A stretch of 64,000 nt of DNA from Streptomyces mirabilis. Lineage in GTDB: Bacteria > Actinomycetota > Actinomycetes > Streptomycetales > Streptomycetaceae. Location of the stretch: NCBI RefSeq assembly GCF_039503195.1, contig NZ_JBCJKP010000001.1, positions 9,486,001 through 9,550,000 of the forward strand, written 5' to 3'. A program made the position numbers and the translations under genes. Under the pieces are notes generated by a model, which had not been told where the DNA came from, ran no database searches, and saw only the letters and a list, made by a program, of their open reading frames with translations. Positions 53,602-64,000 of this stretch are shown here, in pieces (within the stretch, counting starts at the first letter, position 1; every line of letters starts with the position of its first letter).

Positions 53602-54414
53602 TCACCGAGCCGCGGCGTGGTCGGTCAGCTGGTCCAGAAAGCTGTCGACCGTGGCCACGGGGGTCGGCCAGCCGAGTCGTCGGCCGAGCCGGGCCATCTG
53701 GGGCTGTTCGAAGGCGGACATGGACGGATTCCTGTCTCCCTCCAGCCAGCGCTCCACAGGACCGTCCCACCGCACGCGGCCTTCGGACAGGACGACGACC
53801 CGGTCGAAGTTCTCCGCGCAGAAGTCCGTGTCATGGGTGATGGCCAGGATCGTCTTTCCCCGCTCGTGCAGGTCTGCGATGAGCTCTTCGAGCAGGACGA
53901 CGGAGCGGTGGTCCTGGCCGGTGGTGGGCTCGTCCAGGACGATGATCGGGGTGTCCATCGCGAGGACCGAGGCGAAGGCGACCCGTTTGCGCTCGCCGAA
54001 CGACAGATGACGGGGATGGCTGTTCGCCTCCCCGGTCAGGCCGGTGACCTGCAGTGCCCACTGCGTGAGGGCGGTCCGGCGGTCGGCCGGGAAGCCGAGG
54101 TTGCGGGGGCCGAAGCCGACTTCTTTGGCCACCGTGGAGGCGTGCAGCTGGTCGTCCGGGTTCTGGAACACGAAGCCCACGCTGCGGGCCAGCTCGGCGA
54201 TCTCGAGCCCGGCGGCATCGCGACCGTCCACCGTGACCGTCCCCGACGTGGGGCGGGCGATGCCGATCAGGTGCCGGGCCAGCGTGCTCTTGCCCGCTCC
54301 GTTGGGACCCACGACCGCCACACGTTCGCCGGCCCTGACGGTCAGTGAGACGTCCGCGAGCGCGGTCGTTCCGTTCGGATAGCGATGGGAGAGGGAGTCG
54401 ACGCGCAGCACCAT
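53602..54414 (-). CDS. ECF transporter ATPase (EcfA)
   Basis: 270 residues from ATG 54414, which shares a base with the stop of the next ATPase gene (TGATG). Walker A GPNGAGKS at about 38-45, Q-loop VFQNPDDQ, signature LSFGERKRVA (a slightly atypical LSGGQ), Walker B IIVLDEPTTGQD and switch His in ITHDTD. The VFQNPDDQLHASTV motif is typical of ECF ATPases. Drives vitamin/nucleobase uptake with the second ATPase, EcfT and the S component of the same operon. Confidence 0.92.
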   Translation of the reverse strand: MVLRVDSLSHRYPNGTTALADVSLTVRAGERVAVVGPNGAGKSTLARHLIGIARPTSGTVTVDGRDAAGLEIAELARSVGFVFQNPDDQLHASTVAKEVGFGPRNLGFPADRRTALTQWALQVTGLTGEANSHPRHLSFGERKRVAFASVLAMDTPIIVLDEPTTGQDHRSVVLLEELIADLHERGKTILAITHDTDFCAENFDRVVVLSEGRVRWDGPVERWLEGDRNPSMSAFEQPQMARLGRRLGWPTPVATVDSFLDQLTDHAAAR

Positions 54415-55283
54415 CACATGCCTCCGGCGGTTCTCGTGCTCTTGAGCGAGGCGGTGAATCCTTCCGCGGCCGCCTCCAGGGTCGCCGGCAGCGGACGGTC
54501 CGACTCCCACAGGCCGCGCCCGGCGGCGCGGCGTGCGGCCGTCGTGTAGCGCAGCGGAGCCACTCCCCACTCCGCGAGCCGGGGGTCGGTGAGGACATCG
54601 GTCGGCGGCCCGTCCGCGGCGATCCGCCCCTCGTTGAGGATCACGACGCGGTCCGCGTACCGGGCCGGCCGTTCCAGCCGGTGCTCGAACAGGATGACGG
54701 TGACGCCCTGCGCCCGCAGGGTCTCCAGCGCCTCGAACACCACGCCGGTCGCCACCGCGTCGAGCTGTGAGGTCGGTTCGTCGAGCACCATGACGGCCGG
54801 CCTCATCACCAACGCCGATCCGATGGCCAGAAGCTGCTGCTGTCCACCGGAGATTTCGTACGGGGAGTGGTCGGCCAGGGCGGTGAGCCTCAGGTCGGCC
54901 ATGACGCGATCGACGCGTCGGATCATCTCGGCCCGCTCGACACCGAGGTTCTCCAGACCGAAGGCGAGCTCCTCGCGCAGCGAGAACCGTGCTCCAGACA
55001 GCTGGTTGAACGGATTCTGCATGACCAGGCCGACCTCGCCGACGAGTTCGGACGGCTGCGTCTCCGCCAACAGCCGCCCACCCACCCGTGCCGATCCCGT
55101 GGTCTCGCCGCCGGTCATCTGCGGGACGACGCCGCTGACGACTCCCGCGAGGGTGGTCTTGCCCGCGCCGTCGGCACCGGCCACGGCACAGAACTGGCCA
55201 CGCGGCACAGCGAGATCGATGTTCTGGAGGGCGGGTCGGGAGCCGGTCGGATAGGTGAGGGAGAAGTCCCTGAATTCGATCAC
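54414..55283 (-). CDS. ECF transporter ATPase (second EcfA)
   Basis: 289 residues from GTG 55283 (GTGA overlap with the EcfT stop). Walker A GADGAGKT (with the Pro/Asn position replaced by Ala-Asp), VMQNPFNQLSGARFSLREEL, signature ISGGQQQLLAIGS, Walker B VMVLDEPTSQLD, and FEHRLERPARYADRV, where FEHR stands at the switch-His position. The C-terminal 60 residues are an extension (VAPLRYTTAARRAAG). Forms the heterodimeric motor with the ATPase encoded next. Confidence 0.92.
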   Translation of the reverse strand: MIEFRDFSLTYPTGSRPALQNIDLAVPRGQFCAVAGADGAGKTTLAGVVSGVVPQMTGGETTGSARVGGRLLAETQPSELVGEVGLVMQNPFNQLSGARFSLREELAFGLENLGVERAEMIRRVDRVMADLRLTALADHSPYEISGGQQQLLAIGSALVMRPAVMVLDEPTSQLDAVATGVVFEALETLRAQGVTVILFEHRLERPARYADRVVILNEGRIAADGPPTDVLTDPRLAEWGVAPLRYTTAARRAAGRGLWESDRPLPATLEAAAEGFTASLKSTRTAGGM

Positions 55284-56056
55284 CGGAGCACTCCGAGTAC
55301 GTTGGTGACGACGGCGGCGAGCGCGCACAGGCCCATGACGGTCCGGGCGACCCGTTGCGTCGCGGTGTCCGGCACCTCGGTCAGATACGTGGGGCGGCGG
55401 GTGGTGCCGAAACCCCGGGTCTCCATGGCCACCGCACGGTCCCCCACTTCCGTGAGGGCACCGAGGATCAGCGGCCCGGCCATCGGAACCAGGGCCCGGA
55501 CCCGGCCGCGCAGCCCCGTGACCGGCAGGCCGCGCGCCTGCTGGGCGTGCAGGATGCCCTGGGCCCGGGTGGTGAGGGCGGGCGCGATCTGCAGGGCGGC
55601 CGAGACGACGTAGACAGTCTTCGGCGACATGCCGCGCTGTGTCATCGCGCTCATCAGCGCGCCGGGTTGTGTGGTGAGGAGAAGCAGGAAGAATCCCCCC
55701 ATGAGCGCCAGGAGACGCAGTGCGGTCTGCGTGGCAAAAACCAGGCCCTCATATTTCAATTCCAGGGGGCCGATTTCAGCCACCACCCGGTGAGTGTCCG
55801 GATAAAAGAAGCCCTGAATCAGGTAAACCGTGAGCGCGACGGGCACCCACAGGGCAAGAAGCATGGGTACGAATTTACGAAGGGTTCCTGAAATTATCAC
55901 CAGGGGAAGTACCGTGGCGCAGAAGAGCAGCAGCGGCCACCAGGTCATGGTGAGGGCGAATGCGGATACGGTGACGGTGACCGCGAAGGTCAGCTTGGTG
56001 AGCGGATTCAGCCGGTGCACGGGGGAGTCGTCGGTGGCGTGCGGGGATATGTCCAT
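55280..56056 (-). CDS. ECF transporter transmembrane coupling protein (EcfT)
   Basis: 258 residues from ATG 56056; the frame is open further up but the VHRLNPLTKL start is diagnostic. Five hydrophobic segments, and the ATPase-coupling helices carry QARGL (IILHAQQARGLPVTGLRG region) and METRGFGTTRRPTYL, the two Ala-Arg-Gly-like motifs of EcfT. Sits between the S component and the two ATPase genes with four-base overlap. Confidence 0.9.
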   Translation of the reverse strand: MDISPHATDDSPVHRLNPLTKLTFAVTVTVSAFALTMTWWPLLLFCATVLPLVIISGTLRKFVPMLLALWVPVALTVYLIQGFFYPDTHRVVAEIGPLELKYEGLVFATQTALRLLALMGGFFLLLLTTQPGALMSAMTQRGMSPKTVYVVSAALQIAPALTTRAQGILHAQQARGLPVTGLRGRVRALVPMAGPLILGALTEVGDRAVAMETRGFGTTRRPTYLTEVPDTATQRVARTVMGLCALAAVVTNVLGVLR

Positions 56057-56061
56057 GCGGG

Positions 56062-56886
56062 TCACGTCCTTCTCGGCATGAGGCGGTGAACCGCCAGCAC
56101 CCGATGCTTCTGCACAAAGGGGAAACGGTGCACATAGCCGGAGGGCAGGCCTGCCAGCAGGGTCAGGGCCAGTGCGACGGTCAGCGCTTTGTCCAGGGGG
56201 TCCGCGACCAGCCCTTGCAGGCTGGCGGCCTTCAGCATGCTGTTTCCGTAGGCCTGGAACGTCGCGATGACGGCCGACTGCCCCACCGTGCCGCCGGCGT
56301 TGCCGAAGACGAAGGCGGTGATGGGGGCGGAGACGATGCCGGCGGCCACGCCGATCACACCTCCCGCGAGCAGGGCGGTCGGCAGGCGCCGGAACCAGCC
56401 GGCCCGCGCCAGGGTTCCCGCGATGAAGCCGATCAGGGCGGCGGTCACCGCGTAGGGCAGGGCTCCGGGAGTGATGGTCATCCCGACGACGATGCTGGCC
56501 AGAGCCCCGGTGGCGGCGCCCGCGGCCGGTCCGGCCAGGACGCCGACGAGCACGGTGCCGATCGAGTCGAGTTGGAGCGGCAGGCCGCTGAAGTAGACGA
56601 TCTTTCCCATCACGATGTTGATGGTGATCGCCACCGGCAGCAGGGCCACGGTCGTCGTCGGCAGCCCCGCCACCGCGCCGGAGACGATCAGCATCGCCCC
56701 GAGGGTGTAACCGCACAGGGCGAGCAGGGCGGCCGGACCGCCCACGCCGCCGTGCACGGAATCGGGTTTGGCTGAAATCAGCCCCCCGTAAGTGATGGCG
56801 ACGATTACCGCGCCGATCCCGATACGCCAGCGTGGAGAGAGGCGCCAAGGATTTAACAAAATCCGGCCTGTCACTTGATCTGCCAC
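56062..56886 (-). CDS. ECF transporter substrate-binding S component
   Basis: 274 residues, six or so hydrophobic segments (IGIGAVIVAITYGGLISA, PAALLALCGYTLGAMLIVSG, LQLDSIGTVLVGVLAGPAAG, AALASIVVGMTITP-like region, AGGVIGVAAGIVSAPITAFV, LTVALALTLLAGLPSG) with a positively charged C-terminus. First gene of the four-gene transporter operon, divergent from the nucleotide-modifying operon. It determines substrate specificity; a pyrimidine-like or thiamine-precursor-like substrate is a guess based only on the neighbours. Confidence 0.85.
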   Translation of the reverse strand: MADQVTGRILLNPWRLSPRWRIGIGAVIVAITYGGLISAKPDSVHGGVGGPAALLALCGYTLGAMLIVSGAVAGLPTTTVALLPVAITINIVMGKIVYFSGLPLQLDSIGTVLVGVLAGPAAGAATGALASIVVGMTITPGALPYAVTAALIGFIAGTLARAGWFRRLPTALLAGGVIGVAAGIVSAPITAFVFGNAGGTVGQSAVIATFQAYGNSMLKAASLQGLVADPLDKALTVALALTLLAGLPSGYVHRFPFVQKHRVLAVHRLMPRRT

Positions 56887-56940
56887 CCCCGTGTGTTGGC
56901 AGGCCCCATTGGCCGCCGGTCATCATGCAGAGACCGAGTC

Positions 56941-56958
56941 GTCGGTGTCAACACCGAC
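56941..56958. promoter_or_regulatory. 18-bp palindrome in the ECF / ThyA-like divergent region
   Basis: GTCGGTGTCAACACCGAC: perfect 8-bp arms around CA, 55 bases upstream of the S-component start. A second dyad, TTCCCT-TCGTC-AGGGAA (56984-57000), lies next to it. Candidate shared operator for both operons. Confidence 0.5.
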
Positions 56959-57054
56959 CCGCGTCCGCCCGACGGGGACGTATTTCCCTTCGTCAGGGAA
57001 TTGAAAACGTCATTGACAAACCAAGATCTCCAACGCTCTACTCGATTGGAACCG

Positions 57055-57106
57055 AGCTCGCCACGGATGTCGCTATGTCCGGTTTGAAGGCAGGTGGCGA
57101 GTTTTT
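57055..57106 (+). promoter_or_regulatory. Leader stem-loop followed by a T run: candidate attenuator or riboswitch
   Basis: CTCGCCAC (57057-57064) pairs perfectly with GTGGCGAG (57094-57101), extendable by A-U and G-U pairs to 10 bp, and is followed at once by TTTTT (57102-57106), 29 bases before ATG 57136. The 29-base loop contains GGA/TCC arms of a smaller hairpin. An intrinsic-terminator shape in the 5' leader suggests conditional termination. I do not recognise a known riboswitch class. Confidence 0.45.
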
Positions 57107-57135
57107 CGTCTATCACCAGAAACGGGGAAGATGTC

Positions 57136-58128
57136 ATGGCCAACTACCAGTCGTTTGCGGATTCCTACACGGCCGGGCTGCGCGACGTACTCGCGGACGG
57201 CAATGACGTGGACTCGGTGCGCGATCCGCTCTCCAAAGCCTCGGGTTTCGGCCAGAACGACCGCCCGTACCGCGAACTCCTGGCCTACCAGAGCCGTCTC
57301 GCAGACCCGACCTCCTGTCTCGCGGTCACCCCGCACCTTCCGGTCAATCTCTCCTACTGCTTCGGTCTGCTCGCCTGGTCCCTGGACGGCCGCAACGACG
57401 TCGACACCCCGGCGTACTACCGCCGCGGAGCCCATGAGTACTCGGACGACCAGCACACGCTGAGTGGTGCTTTCGGCCATCGGCTGCTGACCTCCAGGGG
57501 GAACCAGCTGGAGGAAGTGGTCGGCCGGATCGAGCGCGACCCCGCCCACCGGCGTGCCTTCGCCCTGGTGTTGCAGCCCGAGGACAATTTCCGCCAGTCG
57601 CGGGAGTACCCGTGCGCCGTGGGCGTCCACCTCTTCCTCCGGGACGGCGCGCTCACCTGGATCACCGTCATGCGAGCCCAGCAGGCGCTGACGGTCCTGC
57701 CCTACGACGCCTTCCTCTTCATGGGGATGCAGCAGTACGCGGCTTCGCTGCTGAACGTCCCGAGCGGCCCGTACATACACCAGTCGGGCACCTTCCACTT
57801 CTACGAGAACGAGGTGGAGCTGGCCCGGAAGATCACCGAAGCGCCCGTGGAGGCCGTGGCGCTGCCCGCGTTCCCGGGCACCCCGGACGGCGGCCGGGAG
57901 ACCGCGCGCGAACTCATCGACTTCGAGCGGCGGCTTCGGCTCGCGGCACAGTCGGGCGACGTCTCCACCGTGGACGAGATCGCCACGCACAAGGCGAACA
58001 CCGAGTTCGCCGACGTGGCCCGGGCCTGCCTGGCCACCCACGCCTACCGCAAGTTGGGCGACACGACGTCGCTCGTGACCAGCCCGGCGTCCAACGGTGG
58101 CGTCGCGAACCTCATCGCCGCGATCTGA
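57136..58128 (+). CDS. Thymidylate-synthase-fold nucleotide-modifying enzyme, predicted cytosine-specific
   Basis: 330 residues from ATG 57136 (GGGGAAG site). ThyA family: nucleophile Cys160 in REYPCAVGV, phosphate-binding Arg180, His221 and Tyr223 in TFHFYEN, all at exactly the E. coli spacing (146, 166, 207, 209). The residue at the Asn177 position is Asp191 (LPYDAF), the change that makes T4 dCMP hydroxymethylase prefer cytosine. The position of Glu58 appears to be Gly77 in CFGLLAWSLDGRN, so chemistry may differ from both ThyA and hydroxymethylases. First gene of a biosynthetic-looking operon. Predicted to alkylate C5 of CMP or dCMP using a folate; product unknown. Confidence 0.82.
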   Translation: MANYQSFADSYTAGLRDVLADGNDVDSVRDPLSKASGFGQNDRPYRELLAYQSRLADPTSCLAVTPHLPVNLSYCFGLLAWSLDGRNDVDTPAYYRRGAHEYSDDQHTLSGAFGHRLLTSRGNQLEEVVGRIERDPAHRRAFALVLQPEDNFRQSREYPCAVGVHLFLRDGALTWITVMRAQQALTVLPYDAFLFMGMQQYAASLLNVPSGPYIHQSGTFHFYENEVELARKITEAPVEAVALPAFPGTPDGGRETARELIDFERRLRLAAQSGDVSTVDEIATHKANTEFADVARACLATHAYRKLGDTTSLVTSPASNGGVANLIAAI

Positions 58129-58159
58129 TCGCGCCGGGGAGTCACACGTGAGGACAACG

Positions 58160-59998
58160 ATGCGTACCCCGCTGAAGCCGCGCCGTCCGGACGCGGCGGC
58201 ATCGGGCGGGAAAGTGACGGAACTCGTCGTCCGGCGGCGCCGGTTGTTCACGGCGCACCCGGGCGAGGCCCGGTTCACCTATCCGGTCATGGCGGCACTG
58301 GTCCCGGTGGCGACCAGCAGAGGCGGGGAGGTCGCCTATCCGGGTGATCCGATGTGCCTGTACTCGGCACTGACCCTCACCATCCAGCGCTCGGTGGCCC
58401 GCCTGAGTGCGGGGCTGCCCGAGGAGCCCTCCCTCGACGACGTCTGCCCCGACTGGGGGCACTGCCCGGACGACGACTACCGCCGCACGGCGAACGGGCC
58501 GCGGACCACGCTGATCGCCGACAGCCGGACCACCGACGGCCACGTCTTCGACCCCCGCATCTGGGACGAGGTGGCCCAGGAGCGTTTCATCGCCGAGCTC
58601 CGCGCGCTCCAGCCCAAGGTCCTCCTGCTCAGCGCGGTGTCGGCGGCGCACCGGTACGCCCTGGAGATGGCCGAGCTGGCCAAGGTCCACGCACCCCACT
58701 GCGTCGTCGTCCTCGGCGGCCGGCACGCCGACGAAACGATGAAGTACCGCGACGCCGACGGCACGGCGGACTTCTCCTGGAGCAGCACGGTGGAGGTCGT
58801 CCGCGACGGCCGCGCGGATCAGGTCGTCGACTTCGTGGTCGCCGGTGACGGCGCCCCTCTGCTCGACCTGCTGCTGCGTGCCCTGTCGCTGACCGTCACG
58901 CCCGGCTTCGGTCCGACCGACAACGCGGCGGTGCTCGACGCCCTTCCGCTGGTCGCCGACGCCGAGGAAACACTCCGCGGTTCGGGCACGATCGTGGGCT
59001 TATGCCCCGGTGAGGCGGTGGTGGTGCCGGTGCGGGGCGAGCGGCTCAGCTCGGCCGAACTCCCGTCGCCGTACGAGGCGTTCTCCATCCGCGCCCGCTT
59101 CGGCGTCTTCACCGAGGCGGGCAGCCACCCGCTCGGCAGCCGCACGGCGCACATGATGACGCTGGACTCCTGCCCGTTCAAATGCACCTTCTGCTCGGAG
59201 AGCATCCAGGTCTCCCAGCGGCCCACCCGCTTCGCGGTGAGCGAGACCGAACACGTGGCACAGCGCGTCCGCCGGCTCATGGACTGGGGCGCGGAGGCCG
59301 TGTTCTTCGACGACCCGGTGTTCTGGGGCGGGAACTGGAAGGCGATCACCGAGTTCTGCCAGGACCTGCTGCGCCAGGGCACGGACCTGCCCGGGGGCAC
59401 CCGCCTCGAGTGGGGCGGACAGCTCACCGTCGACGTGGTGCTCAACCGCGCCAAGGCCGACGAGGTGCACGCCGCGCTCGAACTGATGCGCCGCAGCGGC
59501 TGCACCTACATCTACATCGGCATCGAGAGCATGGCCGAGAGCGTGATGGCCCACGTGGGCAAGAACCTGCTGCGCCGCAACCCCGAGGCCTGGGTGGGCA
59601 AGGTGCGCGAGGCACTCGCGATCATCCGGAGCCACGGCATCCGGGTCGGCAGCTCGGTCCTCTTCGGTCTGGACGGCGAGAGCCGGGAGACCATCGAGGA
59701 GACGATCGAGCAGATCGGCCGGCTGATCGACGACGAACTGCTCGTCATGGCCAGCCCCAACATCCTCACCTACCATCCGGGAACGGCGATCACCGCCGCA
59801 CACGGCCAGGACCGACTGGACTATCACTCGCGCAAGGACAACAGGCCCCCGTACACGTACTTCGAGGAGGCCTATCCGGAAGTCGTCTCCCAACTGCTCA
59901 CCGAGGACGACATCTGGTACATCCACAAGTCCGCGGCCGAGCGCTGGGGCACCGTCCGCAACAGCGCGGCCGAGCCACTGACCGAGGCGGCCAGATGA
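58160..59998 (+). CDS. Radical SAM enzyme with probable N-terminal cobalamin-binding domain
   Basis: 612 residues from ATG 58160 (GAGG site; GTG 58148 possible). The N-terminal 290 residues have a B12-binding-like alpha/beta pattern (VLLLSAVSAAHRYALEMAEL, CVVVLGGRHADETM, VDFVVAGDGAPLLDLLLRAL) though I do not see DxHxxG. The 4Fe-4S motif CPFKCTFC (CX3CX2C) follows near residue 342, then FFDDPVFWGGNW, GCTYIYIGIESMAESVM and VGSSVLFGLDGESRETIEET. Such enzymes methylate unactivated carbons or rearrange skeletons. Begins 31 bp after the ThyA-like gene. Confidence 0.88.
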   Translation: MRTPLKPRRPDAAASGGKVTELVVRRRRLFTAHPGEARFTYPVMAALVPVATSRGGEVAYPGDPMCLYSALTLTIQRSVARLSAGLPEEPSLDDVCPDWGHCPDDDYRRTANGPRTTLIADSRTTDGHVFDPRIWDEVAQERFIAELRALQPKVLLLSAVSAAHRYALEMAELAKVHAPHCVVVLGGRHADETMKYRDADGTADFSWSSTVEVVRDGRADQVVDFVVAGDGAPLLDLLLRALSLTVTPGFGPTDNAAVLDALPLVADAEETLRGSGTIVGLCPGEAVVVPVRGERLSSAELPSPYEAFSIRARFGVFTEAGSHPLGSRTAHMMTLDSCPFKCTFCSESIQVSQRPTRFAVSETEHVAQRVRRLMDWGAEAVFFDDPVFWGGNWKAITEFCQDLLRQGTDLPGGTRLEWGGQLTVDVVLNRAKADEVHAALELMRRSGCTYIYIGIESMAESVMAHVGKNLLRRNPEAWVGKVREALAIIRSHGIRVGSSVLFGLDGESRETIEETIEQIGRLIDDELLVMASPNILTYHPGTAITAAHGQDRLDYHSRKDNRPPYTYFEEAYPEVVSQLLTEDDIWYIHKSAAERWGTVRNSAAEPLTEAAR

Positions 59999-60031
59999 CC
60001 ACCCGCACCGACAACAGCCTTGGGAGGGCGC

Positions 60032-60715
60032 GTGCTTGACGTCGATCGCAAGAGTTACTGGGGCGACTACTACTCCTACTTCCCGGCCCTGGCCCGCTAC
60101 ATCCCGCTCGGCGAATACGCCCGGCGCGTCCAGCCGCGCGCCTGCGTCCTGGGCGTCTCCGACGGCAAGTTCGCCCTGCCGCTGCTGCGCGCGGGCTGGC
60201 AGGTCGTCGGCGTGGAGAGCGACGACCTCTTCCTCAACGGCGGTGAACTGGACCTCGTCGACGGCCACCACGACGTCGTGGGCCTGCGCCAACGGCTCGC
60301 CGCCGAGGGCCTGGAGGACCGGTGCACCGTGGTGGAGCAGGACTACATGACCCTGCCTGCCGAGGGCGACTTCCAACTGGTACTGGGCAGCGGCCTGTGG
60401 TCGATGCCGCCCAACCGGGCCCACACGATGGAAGCCCTCGTCCACCACGCGATGGACATGGTCGCTCCGGGCGGACTCTTCTTCGGTGAGTACCTGATCG
60501 GGCTCAACGACGACGAGCGGAGTTGCGGCTACTACCCGACCGCCACGGAGATGGAGCGGATCGTCACCCGGCCCGGCTGGGAGCTGTTCGAGAACGCCGA
60601 CCTGGGCATCCGCGGCGAGAGCCACCTGGGCTACGAGCAGTGGCACTACCACCGGTACGCGGCCGCCATCGCCCACCGCATGCCGCCGCCCCGTGAGCCC
60701 GCTCGGGAGAAGTGA
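60032..60715 (+). CDS. Class I SAM-dependent methyltransferase
   Basis: 227 residues from GTG 60032 with GGGAGGG upstream. SAM site ACVLGVSDGKFALPLLRAGW with the acidic GVESDD after beta-2, QDYMTLPAEGDFQLVLGSGL (motif post-II/IV) and VAPGGLFFGEYLIG. Short N-terminal cap (YWGDYYSYFPALARYIP). Likely O- or N-methylates an intermediate of this operon; its end is overlapped by the HAD gene. Confidence 0.85.
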   Translation: MLDVDRKSYWGDYYSYFPALARYIPLGEYARRVQPRACVLGVSDGKFALPLLRAGWQVVGVESDDLFLNGGELDLVDGHHDVVGLRQRLAAEGLEDRCTVVEQDYMTLPAEGDFQLVLGSGLWSMPPNRAHTMEALVHHAMDMVAPGGLFFGEYLIGLNDDERSCGYYPTATEMERIVTRPGWELFENADLGIRGESHLGYEQWHYHRYAAAIAHRMPPPREPAREK

Positions 60716-61535
60716 CCTTCGTGACCGGAACGCATCTCAGCGGCTGTCCCCGCATCCGGGGGACAGCCGCCCGGCTGTCGTGGTCACCGATCTCGACGGC
60801 ACACTGCTGCTGTCCGACGGCAGCGTGAGCGAGCGCGCGGTGGCGGCGCTCCGCGCGGTCGCCGCACAGGGGACCCGCGTCGTCTTCGCGACGGCCCGCC
60901 CGGCCTGGTCCGCCCGCGGGCTGCTGTCCGCCGCGTCCGGTCTGGGCGCCTTCCTGGTGTCGTCGAACGGCGCCGTCGTCAGCGACCTGGACGGCGAGGG
61001 CGTACGACGGATCCGGGCGATGACACCCGCCACCGTCCGCGCCGAGATCGCGGTGCTCGGGCAGCGCCCCTGGGCCGTGGACCGGGAGCACGACCGACTG
61101 ATCGGCCCCGGCTGGCCCGACATCCTGGCGAGTGGTGCCGAGACGGCCCTGCGCGTCGGTGACGTGCCGGACGGCTCGCCGGTGCTGTGCCTGATGGTGC
61201 ACATCGATTCCGCCGCTCCGCCTGCGGCGCTCGGGGTGCGCGGCGCGGTGCGGTGGACCTCCTCGGGGCCGGGACTGCTGGAGGTGTCGGCCCCGGAGGC
61301 GGACAAGGTGTCCGCCGTCGCGTCGGTCCTCGCCGACCTCGGCATCGGCTGGGGGGCGGTCGTCGCCTTCGGCGACGCGCCCAACGACACGGGGCTGCTC
61401 GCCGCCGCGGGCCTCGGCGTGGCCGTCGCGAACGCGAGCGCGGACGTACGCGAGGCCGCCGACGCCCTCACCGCGTGCAACGACGACGACGGCGTGGCCG
61501 CCTGGTTGGAGGGAATGTGTCTGTGTCACGTGTGA
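60693..61535 (+). CDS. HAD-superfamily phosphatase (Cof-like)
   Basis: 280 residues from GTG 60693, overlapping the methyltransferase by 23 bases. Motif I VVTDLDGTLLLSDG (nucleophile Asp), motif II VVFATAR, Lys in EADKVSAVASV and motif IV VAFGDAPNDTGLL are all present, with a Cof-type cap between. Probably dephosphorylates a nucleotide or sugar phosphate intermediate of the pathway. Confidence 0.87.
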   Translation: MSPLGRSDLRDRNASQRLSPHPGDSRPAVVVTDLDGTLLLSDGSVSERAVAALRAVAAQGTRVVFATARPAWSARGLLSAASGLGAFLVSSNGAVVSDLDGEGVRRIRAMTPATVRAEIAVLGQRPWAVDREHDRLIGPGWPDILASGAETALRVGDVPDGSPVLCLMVHIDSAAPPAALGVRGAVRWTSSGPGLLEVSAPEADKVSAVASVLADLGIGWGAVVAFGDAPNDTGLLAAAGLGVAVANASADVREAADALTACNDDDGVAAWLEGMCLCHV

Positions 61536-62059
61536 AGACCCTTGCGGAGGCCCGCCGGGTGTGGATCGTGGGTGGTCCCGGTTGCGGCAAGTCGACCCTC
61601 GCCCGCGCCCTCGCCGAACGGCGTGGCATCCCGCCCGTCACACTCGACGCCCTCTTCTGGGGACCGGCCTGGACACCGGTGCCCACGGAGGTCTTCCTCG
61701 CCGGCGTCGAACGGGAACTGACGGCCGACACCTGGGTCGTCGACGGTCAGTTCGCCGCGAGCGTCGAGGCCTTCGCCCACCGCGCCGACTGCGTGGTGTG
61801 GACGGATCCGCCGCTGCGTGTCACCTGGCCGCGCCTGCTGCGCCGTACGGTACGGCGCTGGATACGCCGTGAGGAACTCTGGGGTGGTGTCCGGGAAACG
61901 TTCTGGACCGTCGTCGGCCCCCGGTCCATCCTCTGGTACGCCGTGCAGGTCCGCAACTCCCAACGGCTCGCCAACCAGAGGCTGTTCGACGAGCTCAGCG
62001 GCACCGGCATCCTGCTCCTGCACACGCGCGACAGCGATGTGCGATCTCTGCTGGAATGA
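61517..62059 (+). CDS. P-loop small-molecule kinase (adenylate-kinase/topology-modulation-like)
   Basis: 180 residues from GTG 61517 (GGAGGGAAT), overlapping the HAD gene. Walker A GGPGCGKST, then TLDALFWGPAWTPVP, ELTADTWVVDGQF and WPRLLRRTVRRWIRREELWG, the Arg-rich lid typical of FlaR/AAA-type kinases. In this operon it may phosphorylate a modified nucleoside. Confidence 0.82.
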   Translation: MSVSRVKTLAEARRVWIVGGPGCGKSTLARALAERRGIPPVTLDALFWGPAWTPVPTEVFLAGVERELTADTWVVDGQFAASVEAFAHRADCVVWTDPPLRVTWPRLLRRTVRRWIRREELWGGVRETFWTVVGPRSILWYAVQVRNSQRLANQRLFDELSGTGILLLHTRDSDVRSLLE

Positions 62060-62085
62060 ACTCCGGCACCGTTTCTCCCTACACT
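62057..62085 (+). promoter_or_regulatory. Possible internal promoter before the FemAB-like genes
   Basis: TGAACT, 17 bases, TACACT (62080-62085), 32 bases before ATG 62117. The -10 fits; the -35 is weak. It would let the two transferase genes be expressed separately. Confidence 0.3.
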
Positions 62086-62116
62086 CATCCGATCCACCTT
62101 TTCTGGAGTTTCCCCC

Positions 62117-63292
62117 ATGCACGTCTCCTCGTACGACTCCGTTGACCAGCTGCCGGCGGCGGAATGGGATGCTCTGGTGATCGGCGGAACGATCTACTCC
62201 AGCAGCGGCTTCGCCGGTGTACGCGCGGAGGAGTTGCCCCCCGGAGCCACCACCCGCTATCTGTTGGCGCGTGACGCGCAGGGAACGCCGGTCGCGGGAG
62301 CCGAGGCGTACGCGTTCACCCGTCCGCCGCACCTGCTCTACACCCCCGCCGACCTGCTCGCCGGTCTGATCGACGACGAGCGACACGCCCAACTCGCCGC
62401 CCGACCCATGGTGTTCGGCGCGGGCTGGTCGGAGTTCCGCGGTCAACTGCCGGGCCGCGAGGGAGTGACGGCACAGGAGCGCGCGCAGGCGGTGCGAGCG
62501 CTCACCGCGCGGACCCTCGACTTCGCCCGAACCGCCGAGGCGGACGTGCTCGGGTACTACTACCTGCCCCGGGCGGAGGCGCTGGAGGTCGCCGAGGCCC
62601 ATGCCGAGGACGGGGCGGTGGTCCTTTATCACGACGTGGAGACGGTCCTGCCCGTCGGTCTGTGGCAGAGCCTGGACGACTACTTCGCCTGGCTGCCCTC
62701 CGGCCGACGGCCCCGCGCCCGGCGGGAGAGAAGGGACTTCGGCCGCAGCGGGCGGACCATCCGTGAGGTCTCCCTCCCCGAGGTCGTCAAGGAGATCGCC
62801 CCGCTCAACAGCGCGCTGATGCGCAAGCACGGACACGCGTACGGCGAGGAGCGCGCGGCAGCGGTGTACGACCGCCAGGGACGCCACCTCGGCGACCGCA
62901 GCACGCTCCTCCTGGACGAGGACGCCGGGCAGCCCATCGGTTTCGCGCTGCGATACCGGCACGGCGACACGCTGTACGCGCGCGTGGCTGGTTTCGACTA
63001 CTCGGTGCCCAACGTGGCCGACTATTTCAACCTGGTCTTCTACCACCCCATCGAGTCGGGCGCCGGCCGCACCGTGCGGGCGATCCACCTCGGTCTGGGC
63101 ACCTTCCAGGCAAAGCTGGCGCGCGGCGCCCAGCCGCATCCCCTGTACAGCGTGTTCGTGGGAGTGGACCGGCCGTTGGCGGCGGACGAGAGAGAGGTCC
63201 GCGAACGCAACCGGGCCGAGGCGGAGGCGTTCGGCGCCGAGTACGGCCAGTACGTGGTGGGCGGGTTGAACACCGACGACTGGCTGCTGTGA
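62117..63292 (+). CDS. FemAB/GNAT-like transferase
   Basis: 391 residues from ATG 62117 (TGGAG). The fold is the two-GNAT-domain FemAB-like type: VDQLPAAEWDALVIG opening, ERRDFGRSGRTIREVSLPEV basic segment, then ALMRKHGHAYGEER, GQPIGFALRYRHGDTLYARV and GAGRTVRAIHLGLGTFQAKL in the second domain. Relatives transfer amino acids from aminoacyl-tRNA or acyl groups to small amines, as in peptidyl nucleoside and streptothricin-type antibiotics. Followed 18 bp later by a second protein of the same family. Confidence 0.75.
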   Translation: MHVSSYDSVDQLPAAEWDALVIGGTIYSSSGFAGVRAEELPPGATTRYLLARDAQGTPVAGAEAYAFTRPPHLLYTPADLLAGLIDDERHAQLAARPMVFGAGWSEFRGQLPGREGVTAQERAQAVRALTARTLDFARTAEADVLGYYYLPRAEALEVAEAHAEDGAVVLYHDVETVLPVGLWQSLDDYFAWLPSGRRPRARRERRDFGRSGRTIREVSLPEVVKEIAPLNSALMRKHGHAYGEERAAAVYDRQGRHLGDRSTLLLDEDAGQPIGFALRYRHGDTLYARVAGFDYSVPNVADYFNLVFYHPIESGAGRTVRAIHLGLGTFQAKLARGAQPHPLYSVFVGVDRPLAADEREVRERNRAEAEAFGAEYGQYVVGGLNTDDWLL

Positions 63293-63310
63293 GCAAGGGG
63301 AGGAAGGCAC

Positions 63311-64000
63311 ATGCCTGATGTGAGGCACTTCGAGACGATCGACGACATCGACCGGGAGGCCTGGGACGCGCTCGCGCCGGGCAGTCGCTTCTACCAGAGC
63401 CATGCCTGGCTGCGGGGTCAGGAGCGGCCCGAGTTCGCCACCCCGGGTTACCTCACCGTCGAGGCCGACGGCCAACTCCTCGCCGGGACGCCGTACTACG
63501 ACTTTCCGTCGGAGAACGCACCGCCCCTGCCGGACGTGTCCGAGGGCCACACCGTGCTCAGACTCGGTACCCGCACCGGCTACCACAACGAGTTTCTGCT
63601 GCCGAAGGACCCCGGAACGGCAGAGGAGGCACTCGACGCCCTGGTCGCCGGTGCAGCCGAGAGGGCCGCGGCGCTCGGCTGCGACGCACTGCTCTTCGAC
63701 TTCCTCACCACCGACAGTCTGCGGCTGCTCGCGGGCCGGTTCGGGGTGCGGGCGCAGCTGCGAGCCGCCGAGGCCGTGGTGCACAACGACGGCGGCACCT
63801 TCGAGTCCTACCGTGAGCTGCTCGGCCGCAACGTCCGCAAGCGCGAGTACGAGATCCGGCGCTTCACGGACTCCGGGCTGCGGGTGGAGACGGCCCCGCT
63901 GTCCGCGTGCGTCGACGAGTTCGCGCCACTGGTCGCCCAGACCATGGACCGGTACAACGCCTCCCTCGACCTCGCGGAGATCCACACGTTCCTCACGGTC
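63311..64000 (+). CDS. FemAB/GNAT-like transferase, second copy, 3' end beyond window
   Basis: Open from ATG 63311 (GGGGAGGAAGG site) to the last base of the window; at least 230 residues. FETIDDIDREAWDALAPGSR, FYQSHAWLRGQER and YHNEFLLPKDPGTAEEALDA match the N-terminal GNAT half of the same FemAB-like group as the previous gene; YRELLGRNVRKREYEIRRFT is the basic connecting segment. Two distinct copies imply two successive transfers or two donor groups. Confidence 0.75.
   Translation, partial: MPDVRHFETIDDIDREAWDALAPGSRFYQSHAWLRGQERPEFATPGYLTVEADGQLLAGTPYYDFPSENAPPLPDVSEGHTVLRLGTRTGYHNEFLLPKDPGTAEEALDALVAGAAERAAALGCDALLFDFLTTDSLRLLAGRFGVRAQLRAAEAVVHNDGGTFESYRELLGRNVRKREYEIRRFTDSGLRVETAPLSACVDEFAPLVAQTMDRYNASLDLAEIHTFLTV

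Follow-up and report, generated by a model that had tools for sequence, protein, structure and literature searches.

What does an enzyme with the thymidylate synthase (TS) fold and a cytosine-type active site do in an operon that lies back to back with a transporter? The locus that raises this question belongs to Streptomyces mirabilis (assembly GCF_039503195.1) and lies at the right end of the window analysed here, a stretch of 64,000 nucleotides at positions 9,486,001-9,550,000 of contig 1 (NZ_JBCJKP010000001.1) in a genome of 11.1 Mb. The cluster starts at position 53,602 and continues past the window end to about 66,780, with some 13 genes. Energy-coupling factor (ECF) transporter genes in the order A-A-T-S on the minus strand are divergent from a series encoding the TS-fold enzyme (thyA-like), a B12/radical S-adenosylmethionine (SAM) protein, a methyltransferase, a HAD phosphatase, a P-loop kinase-like protein and two FemAB-like proteins; a PhyH gene on the minus strand and a major facilitator superfamily (MFS) gene follow. 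We read the block as a biosynthetic cluster, spread by horizontal transfer, whose product would be a modified cytidine with one or two amino acids attached and whose entry enzyme may be a flavin-type CMP C5-hydroxylase, and we would place this combined reading just short of an even chance.

That the cluster is real, conserved and horizontally moving is the firmest part of this answer. When the thyA-like protein was searched against 392 genomes of the genus, 51 matched at E 1e-10 and just six at 67% identity or above. The five genomes with a thyA-like protein of at least 77% are exactly the five with a radical SAM protein of at least 76%, and eight further genomes hold a radical SAM relative at 45-52% only. 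Among GTDB species genomes, 24 loci with a thyA-like gene were found, three of which (L047, L054, L056) end at a contig edge inside the cluster, leaving 21 assessable. The radical SAM gene lies beside the thyA-like gene in 15 of these and is absent beside six. All 15 carry the methyltransferase, kinase and PhyH genes, 14 have FemA, 13 HAD, 11 the complete ECF set and ten each a FemB orthologue (at least 60% identity) and the MFS gene. The constant core is thyA, radical SAM and methyltransferase. Around it, the ECF genes survive only as fragments in L064; L052 and L053 are without ECF, FemB and MFS; L065 is without HAD, FemB and MFS; a Saccharopolyspora locus (L058) is without FemB and MFS; and a Kutzneria locus (L063) has thyA, radical SAM, methyltransferase, kinase and PhyH only, in a different order. 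A chance neighbourhood is rejected by the 5/5 co-occurrence in 392 genomes and the retention of the block in 15 loci. An initial annotation of this DNA had proposed looking for co-occurrence of the ThyA-like, radical SAM and FemAB-like genes and had named freely varying neighbours as evidence against an operon of this kind; the genes do travel together, and their neighbours are kept as a block.

The boundaries point the same way. Three markers of the left flank occur in none of the 15 loci (they are present in the near-identical L047), and three markers of the right flank were not found 3' of the MFS gene in any of the three genomes for which the sequence was extended to the right. Only those three define the right edge, since most of the loci compared stop short of the right-flank markers or only just reach them. 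Streptomyces sp. NBC_01591 has a copy (L188) on a plasmid of 1.27 Mb, with ECF, thyA, radical SAM, methyltransferase, HAD, FemA, FemB and MFS genes. Since the block is kept without its flanks and also occurs on a plasmid, it moves as a unit. At 99%, S. diastatochromogenes ATCC 12309 has the closest thyA-like protein among named relatives in the contig scan; Streptomyces griseofuscus DSM 40191 also has a copy of the cluster (L055). No described pathway or enzyme with this gene set was noticed among the matches listed from open-access literature, which is no proof of absence from print; the cluster is probably previously unstudied.

Some copies appear disrupted: the radical SAM gene is interrupted in a draft of S. 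violaceus (L048:10956-13263), frame breaks occur in S. huasconensis (L060), and ECF remnants lie at L064:8689-9418 in Streptantibioticus rubrisoli. All three could be assembly errors. Just right of the S. mirabilis cluster is a gene for a CbtA-family probable cobalt transporter (L003:4055-5083). A link to cobalt or B12 through this gene was rejected, and we treat it as flank, because no CbtA match lies beside the cluster in the three extended genomes.

The TS-fold enzyme (57136..58128, plus strand) holds the key to the chemistry. Its residues were read, in E. coli numbering, on alignments with E. coli ThyA for 102 homologues of at least 290 residues (116 were found, and 14 shorter ones excluded). 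The nucleophile C146 and the cytosine-type D177 are present in 102/102, and Ala167 in 100; the last is the position of MilA Ala176, which favours ribose according to the portion of PMC5175136 consulted. Glu58, Tyr94 and Asp169 are each found in 0/102. The cluster enzyme has Phe94 in place of Tyr and probably Leu58 in place of Glu, and the loss of Glu58 (MilA Glu68) is also visible in a pairwise comparison with MilA, whose Lys133 position is Arg throughout the 102. As a control set we took 24 further TS-fold relatives from Streptomyces, those that came first among the 26-32% matches given loci in the 392-genome search, and all 24 keep Glu58, Tyr94 and Asp169. Passages of PMC6400193 term the catalytic Glu conserved in all TS/CH/dCH members (CH and dCH being the CMP and dCMP hydroxymethylases), report no product for Tyr96Phe, the equivalent Tyr, in T4 dCMP hydroxymethylase, and give Asp169 as a pterin-binding residue. 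Because Cys and Asp177 are kept while Glu58, Tyr94 and Asp169 are lost, the cytosine-type reading is right and a hydroxymethylase reading doubtful. Thus, of the parallel with MilA drawn in the initial annotation, fold and base recognition hold, but the residues for folate chemistry are missing. A housekeeping thymidylate synthase, the outcome that would have undone that annotation, is rejected: position 177 is Asp and not the uracil-type Asn in 102/102, and the genome has a ThyX gene and no PF00303 match besides the thyA-like gene. In three sister loci without the radical SAM gene (L039, L061, L062), a thyA-like gene at 65-66% is paired with a MilB-like hydrolase, and this pairing supports cytidylate as the substrate of the thyA-like family.

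If folate chemistry is doubtful, what might replace it? A phage enzyme offers a possible answer. AfhB is a phage FAD-dependent dCMP 5-hydroxylase by the titles of its Protein Data Bank (PDB) entries (9iqc, 9iqu), and it has in common with the clade a Glu-Tyr-Pro before the Cys (EYPC), the absence of Asp169, and a Val or Ile at 173. We defined E143, non-D169 and V/I173 as a marker set in this analysis. It is found in 98/102 homologues (the exceptions are P0021, P0102, P0106 and P0108), in 4/4 AfhB-family phage proteins and in 0/24 control relatives, and it is missing from E. coli ThyA, from two phage proteins of hydroxymethylase type and from three further phage proteins. AfhB ranks after MilA both in the VIA-align structure ranking and in the profile search. 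Across seven trees, which varied in outgroup and included either nine or 24 Streptomyces relatives, the AfhB family and the clade form one group every time, with support of 95/84, 89/88, 47/49, 98/92, 88/87, 88/72 and 93/90. Fifteen Streptomyces TS-fold proteins (L012, L014, L016-L022, L025-L027, L029, L030, L034) make up a further group with Gly or Ser167, Gln168 and Asp169, which adjoins neither the MilA-type proteins nor AfhB in the trees.

On the flavin reading, the Cys would add to C6 of CMP, and C5 would be hydroxylated with reduced flavin and O2 to give 5-hydroxy-CMP, with no one-carbon unit added from folate. Several points weigh against it. MilA is the closest solved protein by both sequence and fold, and no AfhB entry appears among the best 50 Foldseek rows for the TS-fold enzyme. 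Most tree builds gave long-branch warnings, and one had the support of 47/49. Tyr94 is kept in AfhB and in 4/4 AfhB-family proteins as against 0/102 here, and AfhB keeps Glu58 in two of three alignments (F in the third), so the losses of Glu58 and Tyr94 are not an AfhB trait. The AfhB substrate is dCMP, and AfhB has Ser167 where Ala167 stands here; two of the four AfhB-family proteins are 32-34% identical to AfhB and have a function that is predicted only. None of the cluster genes was recognisable as one for a flavin reductase. Gln168, once taken as an AfhB marker, was dropped because 15/24 control relatives also have it: the nine earlier MilA-type comparison proteins had been chosen by MRAN or SDVFSF content, which biased that column, and the failure of the marker in an unbiased control slightly lowers the chance of flavin use. 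Further along the pathway, the best Foldseek E-values for FemA fall to the acetyltransferase VipF, and the plasmid copy has no kinase or PhyH match. Since the activity of AfhB comes from entry titles and the residues differ as described, flavin use is a favoured guess and not a result.

The alternatives concern what else the pocket might do. One is that the enzyme uses neither folate nor flavin. It might instead prime C5 of CMP to react with a different electrophile (an aldehyde, for instance, or an intermediate that the radical SAM enzyme makes), or swap or remove a group at C5. The joint loss of Glu58 and Tyr94, unlike in AfhB, would suit such a reaction, as would the radical SAM gene lying 3' of thyA in 15/15 complete main-clade loci. 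Yet the pocket changes in common with AfhB in 98/102 are more simply explained by flavin, and six of 21 assessable loci have the thyA-like gene without a radical SAM gene; we regard this alternative as rather unlikely. A folate-dependent CMP 5-hydroxymethylase like MilA, leading to a 5-hydroxymethylcytidine conjugate, has the closeness of MilA itself in its favour. It is at odds with the absence from all 102 of a Glu described as conserved family-wide, with a Phe at the position where the T4 enzyme did not tolerate one, with the missing Asp169 and the invariant Arg for Lys133, and with the retention of Glu58, Tyr94 and Asp169 in every control relative. We consider it improbable.

Under the preferred flavin-type entry, the enzymes encoded downstream would then elaborate 5-hydroxy-CMP. 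What the sequences show is the order of the genes, their conservation, the cluster boundaries, the predicted folds, the active-site residues and the context of the transporter; the reactions and their sequence, the cofactor and the product are inferred. The B12-type radical SAM enzyme (58148..59998, plus strand; PF04055 at 2.7e-13) and the methyltransferase may add carbon or methyl groups. In the former, the CxxxCxxC motif reads CPFKCTFC, and its three Cys are invariant in 23 sequences. The radical SAM part of the label radical SAM/B12-like in the initial annotation is borne out by this motif; the match to a B12-binding domain falls short of the Pfam cut-off (PF02310, 29.7 against 32.1 bits). 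The best named families are B12 types such as TIGR04434 (rSAM_Pput_1520; 129.5 against 550 bits) and BchE, all far below their cut-offs. No solved relative was found at profile E 1e-6, with one weak match, 9ccb, and the protein has no match in viral contigs. Relatives do not settle the reaction: the 45-52% clade lies beside nonribosomal peptide synthetase (NRPS), P450 and other genes. In this second radical SAM clade (L108-L117), L110, L113 and L115 have NRPS- and P450-like neighbours and L110 also a 2-isopropylmalate-synthase-like one; the ten loci fetched for the wider clade gave no thyA match.

The putative class I SAM methyltransferase (60020..60715, plus strand), found in every one of the 15 loci, has no Pfam match, weak NCBIfam matches and no useful solved relative. 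It is followed on the same strand by the HAD-IIB (Cof-type) phosphatase (60693..61535; PF08282 at 2.9e-38, with DxDxT), which would remove the phosphate, and by the P-loop kinase-like protein (about 61517..62059, predicted start; Walker A GGPGCGKS; NF005994 at 73.3 bits, cut-off 215). A link between this kinase and the phage thymidylate kinase next to AfhB was dropped, as the two gave no alignment. The PhyH-family oxygenase (minus strand, from 64,416 to a predicted start near 65,390, in the downstream sequence L003) has HxD, and its best solved relatives are SnoN, PhyH and SnoK. Because it resembles both SnoN/SnoK and PhyH, it could either hydroxylate or epimerise.

FemA (62117..63292, plus strand) is a predicted FemABX-like aminoacyl transferase, and FemB (63311..64429, plus strand, cut by the window end at 64000; PF04339 at 3.1e-07) is its paralogue, with 29% identity over 403 columns. 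The two would attach amino acids from charged tRNAs. FemA is tRNA-ligase-like in its predicted double-GNAT fold, which is like those of FemX and the streptothricin aminoacyl-tRNA ligases. The acetyl-CoA-type pattern Q/RxxGxG/A occurs in 8/15 sequences, at residue 272 in 4/10 FemA proteins and otherwise scattered, with no position common to all. The MFS protein (65,472-66,782, plus strand, also in L003) would export the product. The earlier proposal of an amino-acid-conjugated modified cytosine nucleoside thus gains from the conserved mobile cluster, the cytosine-type enzyme, the tRNA-ligase-like FemAB proteins and the nucleoside-type transporter; a hydroxymethyl- or methyl-cytosine product is doubtful.

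The same annotation described a complete four-gene ECF transporter divergent from the thyA-like operon, and A, A, T and S are all present. On the minus strand lie ATPase 2 (53602..54570; PF00005; best NCBIfam TIGR04521, 201.9 bits, cut-off 330), ATPase 1 (54414..55328; PF00005; TIGR04520, 186 bits, cut-off 315), the CbiQ-family T component (55280..56035, predicted start; PF02361, E 2e-25) and the S component (56062..56886), the first three conserved in cluster loci. Every gene that the annotation named is an open frame where it was placed. Its block began at 56062, too far right, as the A, A and T genes at 53602-56035 also belong, and following the cluster beyond 64 kb, as it had advised, brought in the end of FemB, PhyH and MFS. 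The divergent intergenic region (56887..57135) holds a conserved TTGACA-like element, read by eye in a five-locus alignment. The S gene and the radical SAM gene have one TTA codon each, and TTA codons in Streptomyces are often a sign of bldA control.

The transporter probably takes nucleosides, to judge from the relatives of its predicted nucleoside-binding S component. This CD3073-like protein matches NF045596 at 87.2 bits, below the cut-off of 180, and shares 50% identity with the L132 S component over 234 aa. Four related systems were seen in other actinobacteria, with a PF01156 nucleoside hydrolase in two. The L132 S component has a relative in 84/197 genomes of one bacterial family, from which we sampled 20 contexts of 8.5-11 kb (20 genomes, 13 genera). 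A nucleoside hydrolase match occurs in 19, directly beside the S gene in 17; the other two contexts have just a partial match, roughly 3 kb off and adjacent to an S relative of 30-31%, and L175 has none. No such hydrolase was found in 49 control sequences (0.99 Mb). Because the 20 contexts are mutually related, we count them as one strong association and not as 19. An aldo-keto reductase is also present in 10/20 of these loci (L158-L177), a predicted nucleoside salvage system. In the S. mirabilis cluster, the ECF system may take up nucleosides as substrate supply or for recapture. Import of a cofactor (folate, or cobalamin to serve the radical SAM enzyme) is quite improbable: the B12-type enzyme in the cluster speaks for it, as does FolT as the best, though weak, solved match for the S component (E 0.0074), and against it stand the 50% identity to a family with IU (inosine-uridine) nucleoside hydrolases in 19/20 contexts and none of 49 controls, a TS-like protein that seems folate-free, and the window's lack of any Rfam match at gathering score, on which a cobalamin riboswitch by the ECF genes was also rejected.

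More distant loci show the TS fold in other company. In Actinomadura (L067:427-2210), Microbacterium (L068:8819-11832) and Blastococcus (L070:8199-10966), a thyA-like gene is found with a HAD gene; the latter two also encode a protein resembling dCTP deaminase (PF22769), whose tail looks hydrophobic by eye, and L067 a NUDIX-like protein and a large helicase matching DruE3. These loci possibly reflect a separate nucleotide or defence use. MilA-type genes at 28-29% to the cluster enzyme lie beside MilB-like hydrolases in L040, L042 and L044, with a methyltransferase-like gene in L040 and a ThiD-like kinase in L042 (by eye), and the three resemble bacimethrin-type thiamine antimetabolite clusters. 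In L045, a TS-fold match has a carbamoyltransferase-like protein, a P-loop kinase and a methyltransferase as neighbours (named by eye), which suggests a different nucleoside-type cluster.

It is tempting to go one step further and propose, still more tentatively, that bacterial relatives of TS gave up folate and hydroxylate C5 of ribo-CMP with flavin, serving a new class of peptidyl 5-hydroxycytidine antibiotics in Streptomyces and a further use in other actinobacteria, where HAD and thyA-like genes are paired, some with a dCTP-deaminase-like gene. If so, the TS fold, textbook folate enzyme and drug target, would include, in bacteria as well as in phages, a branch of flavin-dependent hydroxylases, with marker residues by which to find it. 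5-Hydroxycytidine chemistry would become accessible by a short enzymatic route, and at least 15 genomes would hold an orphan cluster of antibiotic type, in most cases with one or two FemAB-like ligases. Nucleosides would also become a lead for the substrate of an ECF transporter family that is so far unassigned.

How does the cluster compare with known systems? Like MilA (CMP 5-hydroxymethylase; 5b6d, 5jnh), its enzyme has a full-length TS fold, the Cys nucleophile, the cytosine Asp and a ribose-type Ala, and would likewise take the first step toward a cytidine-derived antibiotic; it differs in lacking MilA's Glu68, Tyr and Asp of folate catalysis and in having Arg for Lys133. Bacimethrin- and mildiomycin-type clusters also begin with a cytidylate-modifying TS-fold enzyme, and the base is then released by a MilB-type hydrolase. 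Main-clade loci gave no match to such a hydrolase, unlike the MilA system, and it appears here only in the three sister loci. With AfhB the enzyme has in common the TS fold, EYPC before and at the Cys, the missing Asp169, Val173 and the cytosine Asp, and it differs in Ala167 (not Ser), Phe94 (not Tyr), probably Leu58 (not Glu) and a longer C-terminus. The setting differs too, phage DNA modification for AfhB and a bacterial gene cluster here. The 4'-thiothymidine cluster, as described in part of PMC12691670, also has a radical SAM enzyme and a kinase, a likeness by description only. FemABX-type natural-product ligases, among which are Sba18/Sbb17 (9wqw-9wqy) and, by a passage of PMC12945691, VlmA, DhpH, DhpK, PacB and Orf11, have the double-GNAT fold in common with the cluster proteins, but the latter belong to the PF04339 sequence family and are two paralogues side by side. 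The dedicated A, A, T and S genes stand together as in a Group I ECF transporter, and CD3073-family systems (NF045596) likewise group S, T and A genes around a related S component; the one here scores below the family cut-off and sits in a biosynthetic cluster, not beside a nucleoside hydrolase. Taken as a whole, the cluster looks like a known type, that of the peptidyl nucleosides, with an entry enzyme that looks like a new cellular branch beside the flavin-type cytidylate hydroxylases.

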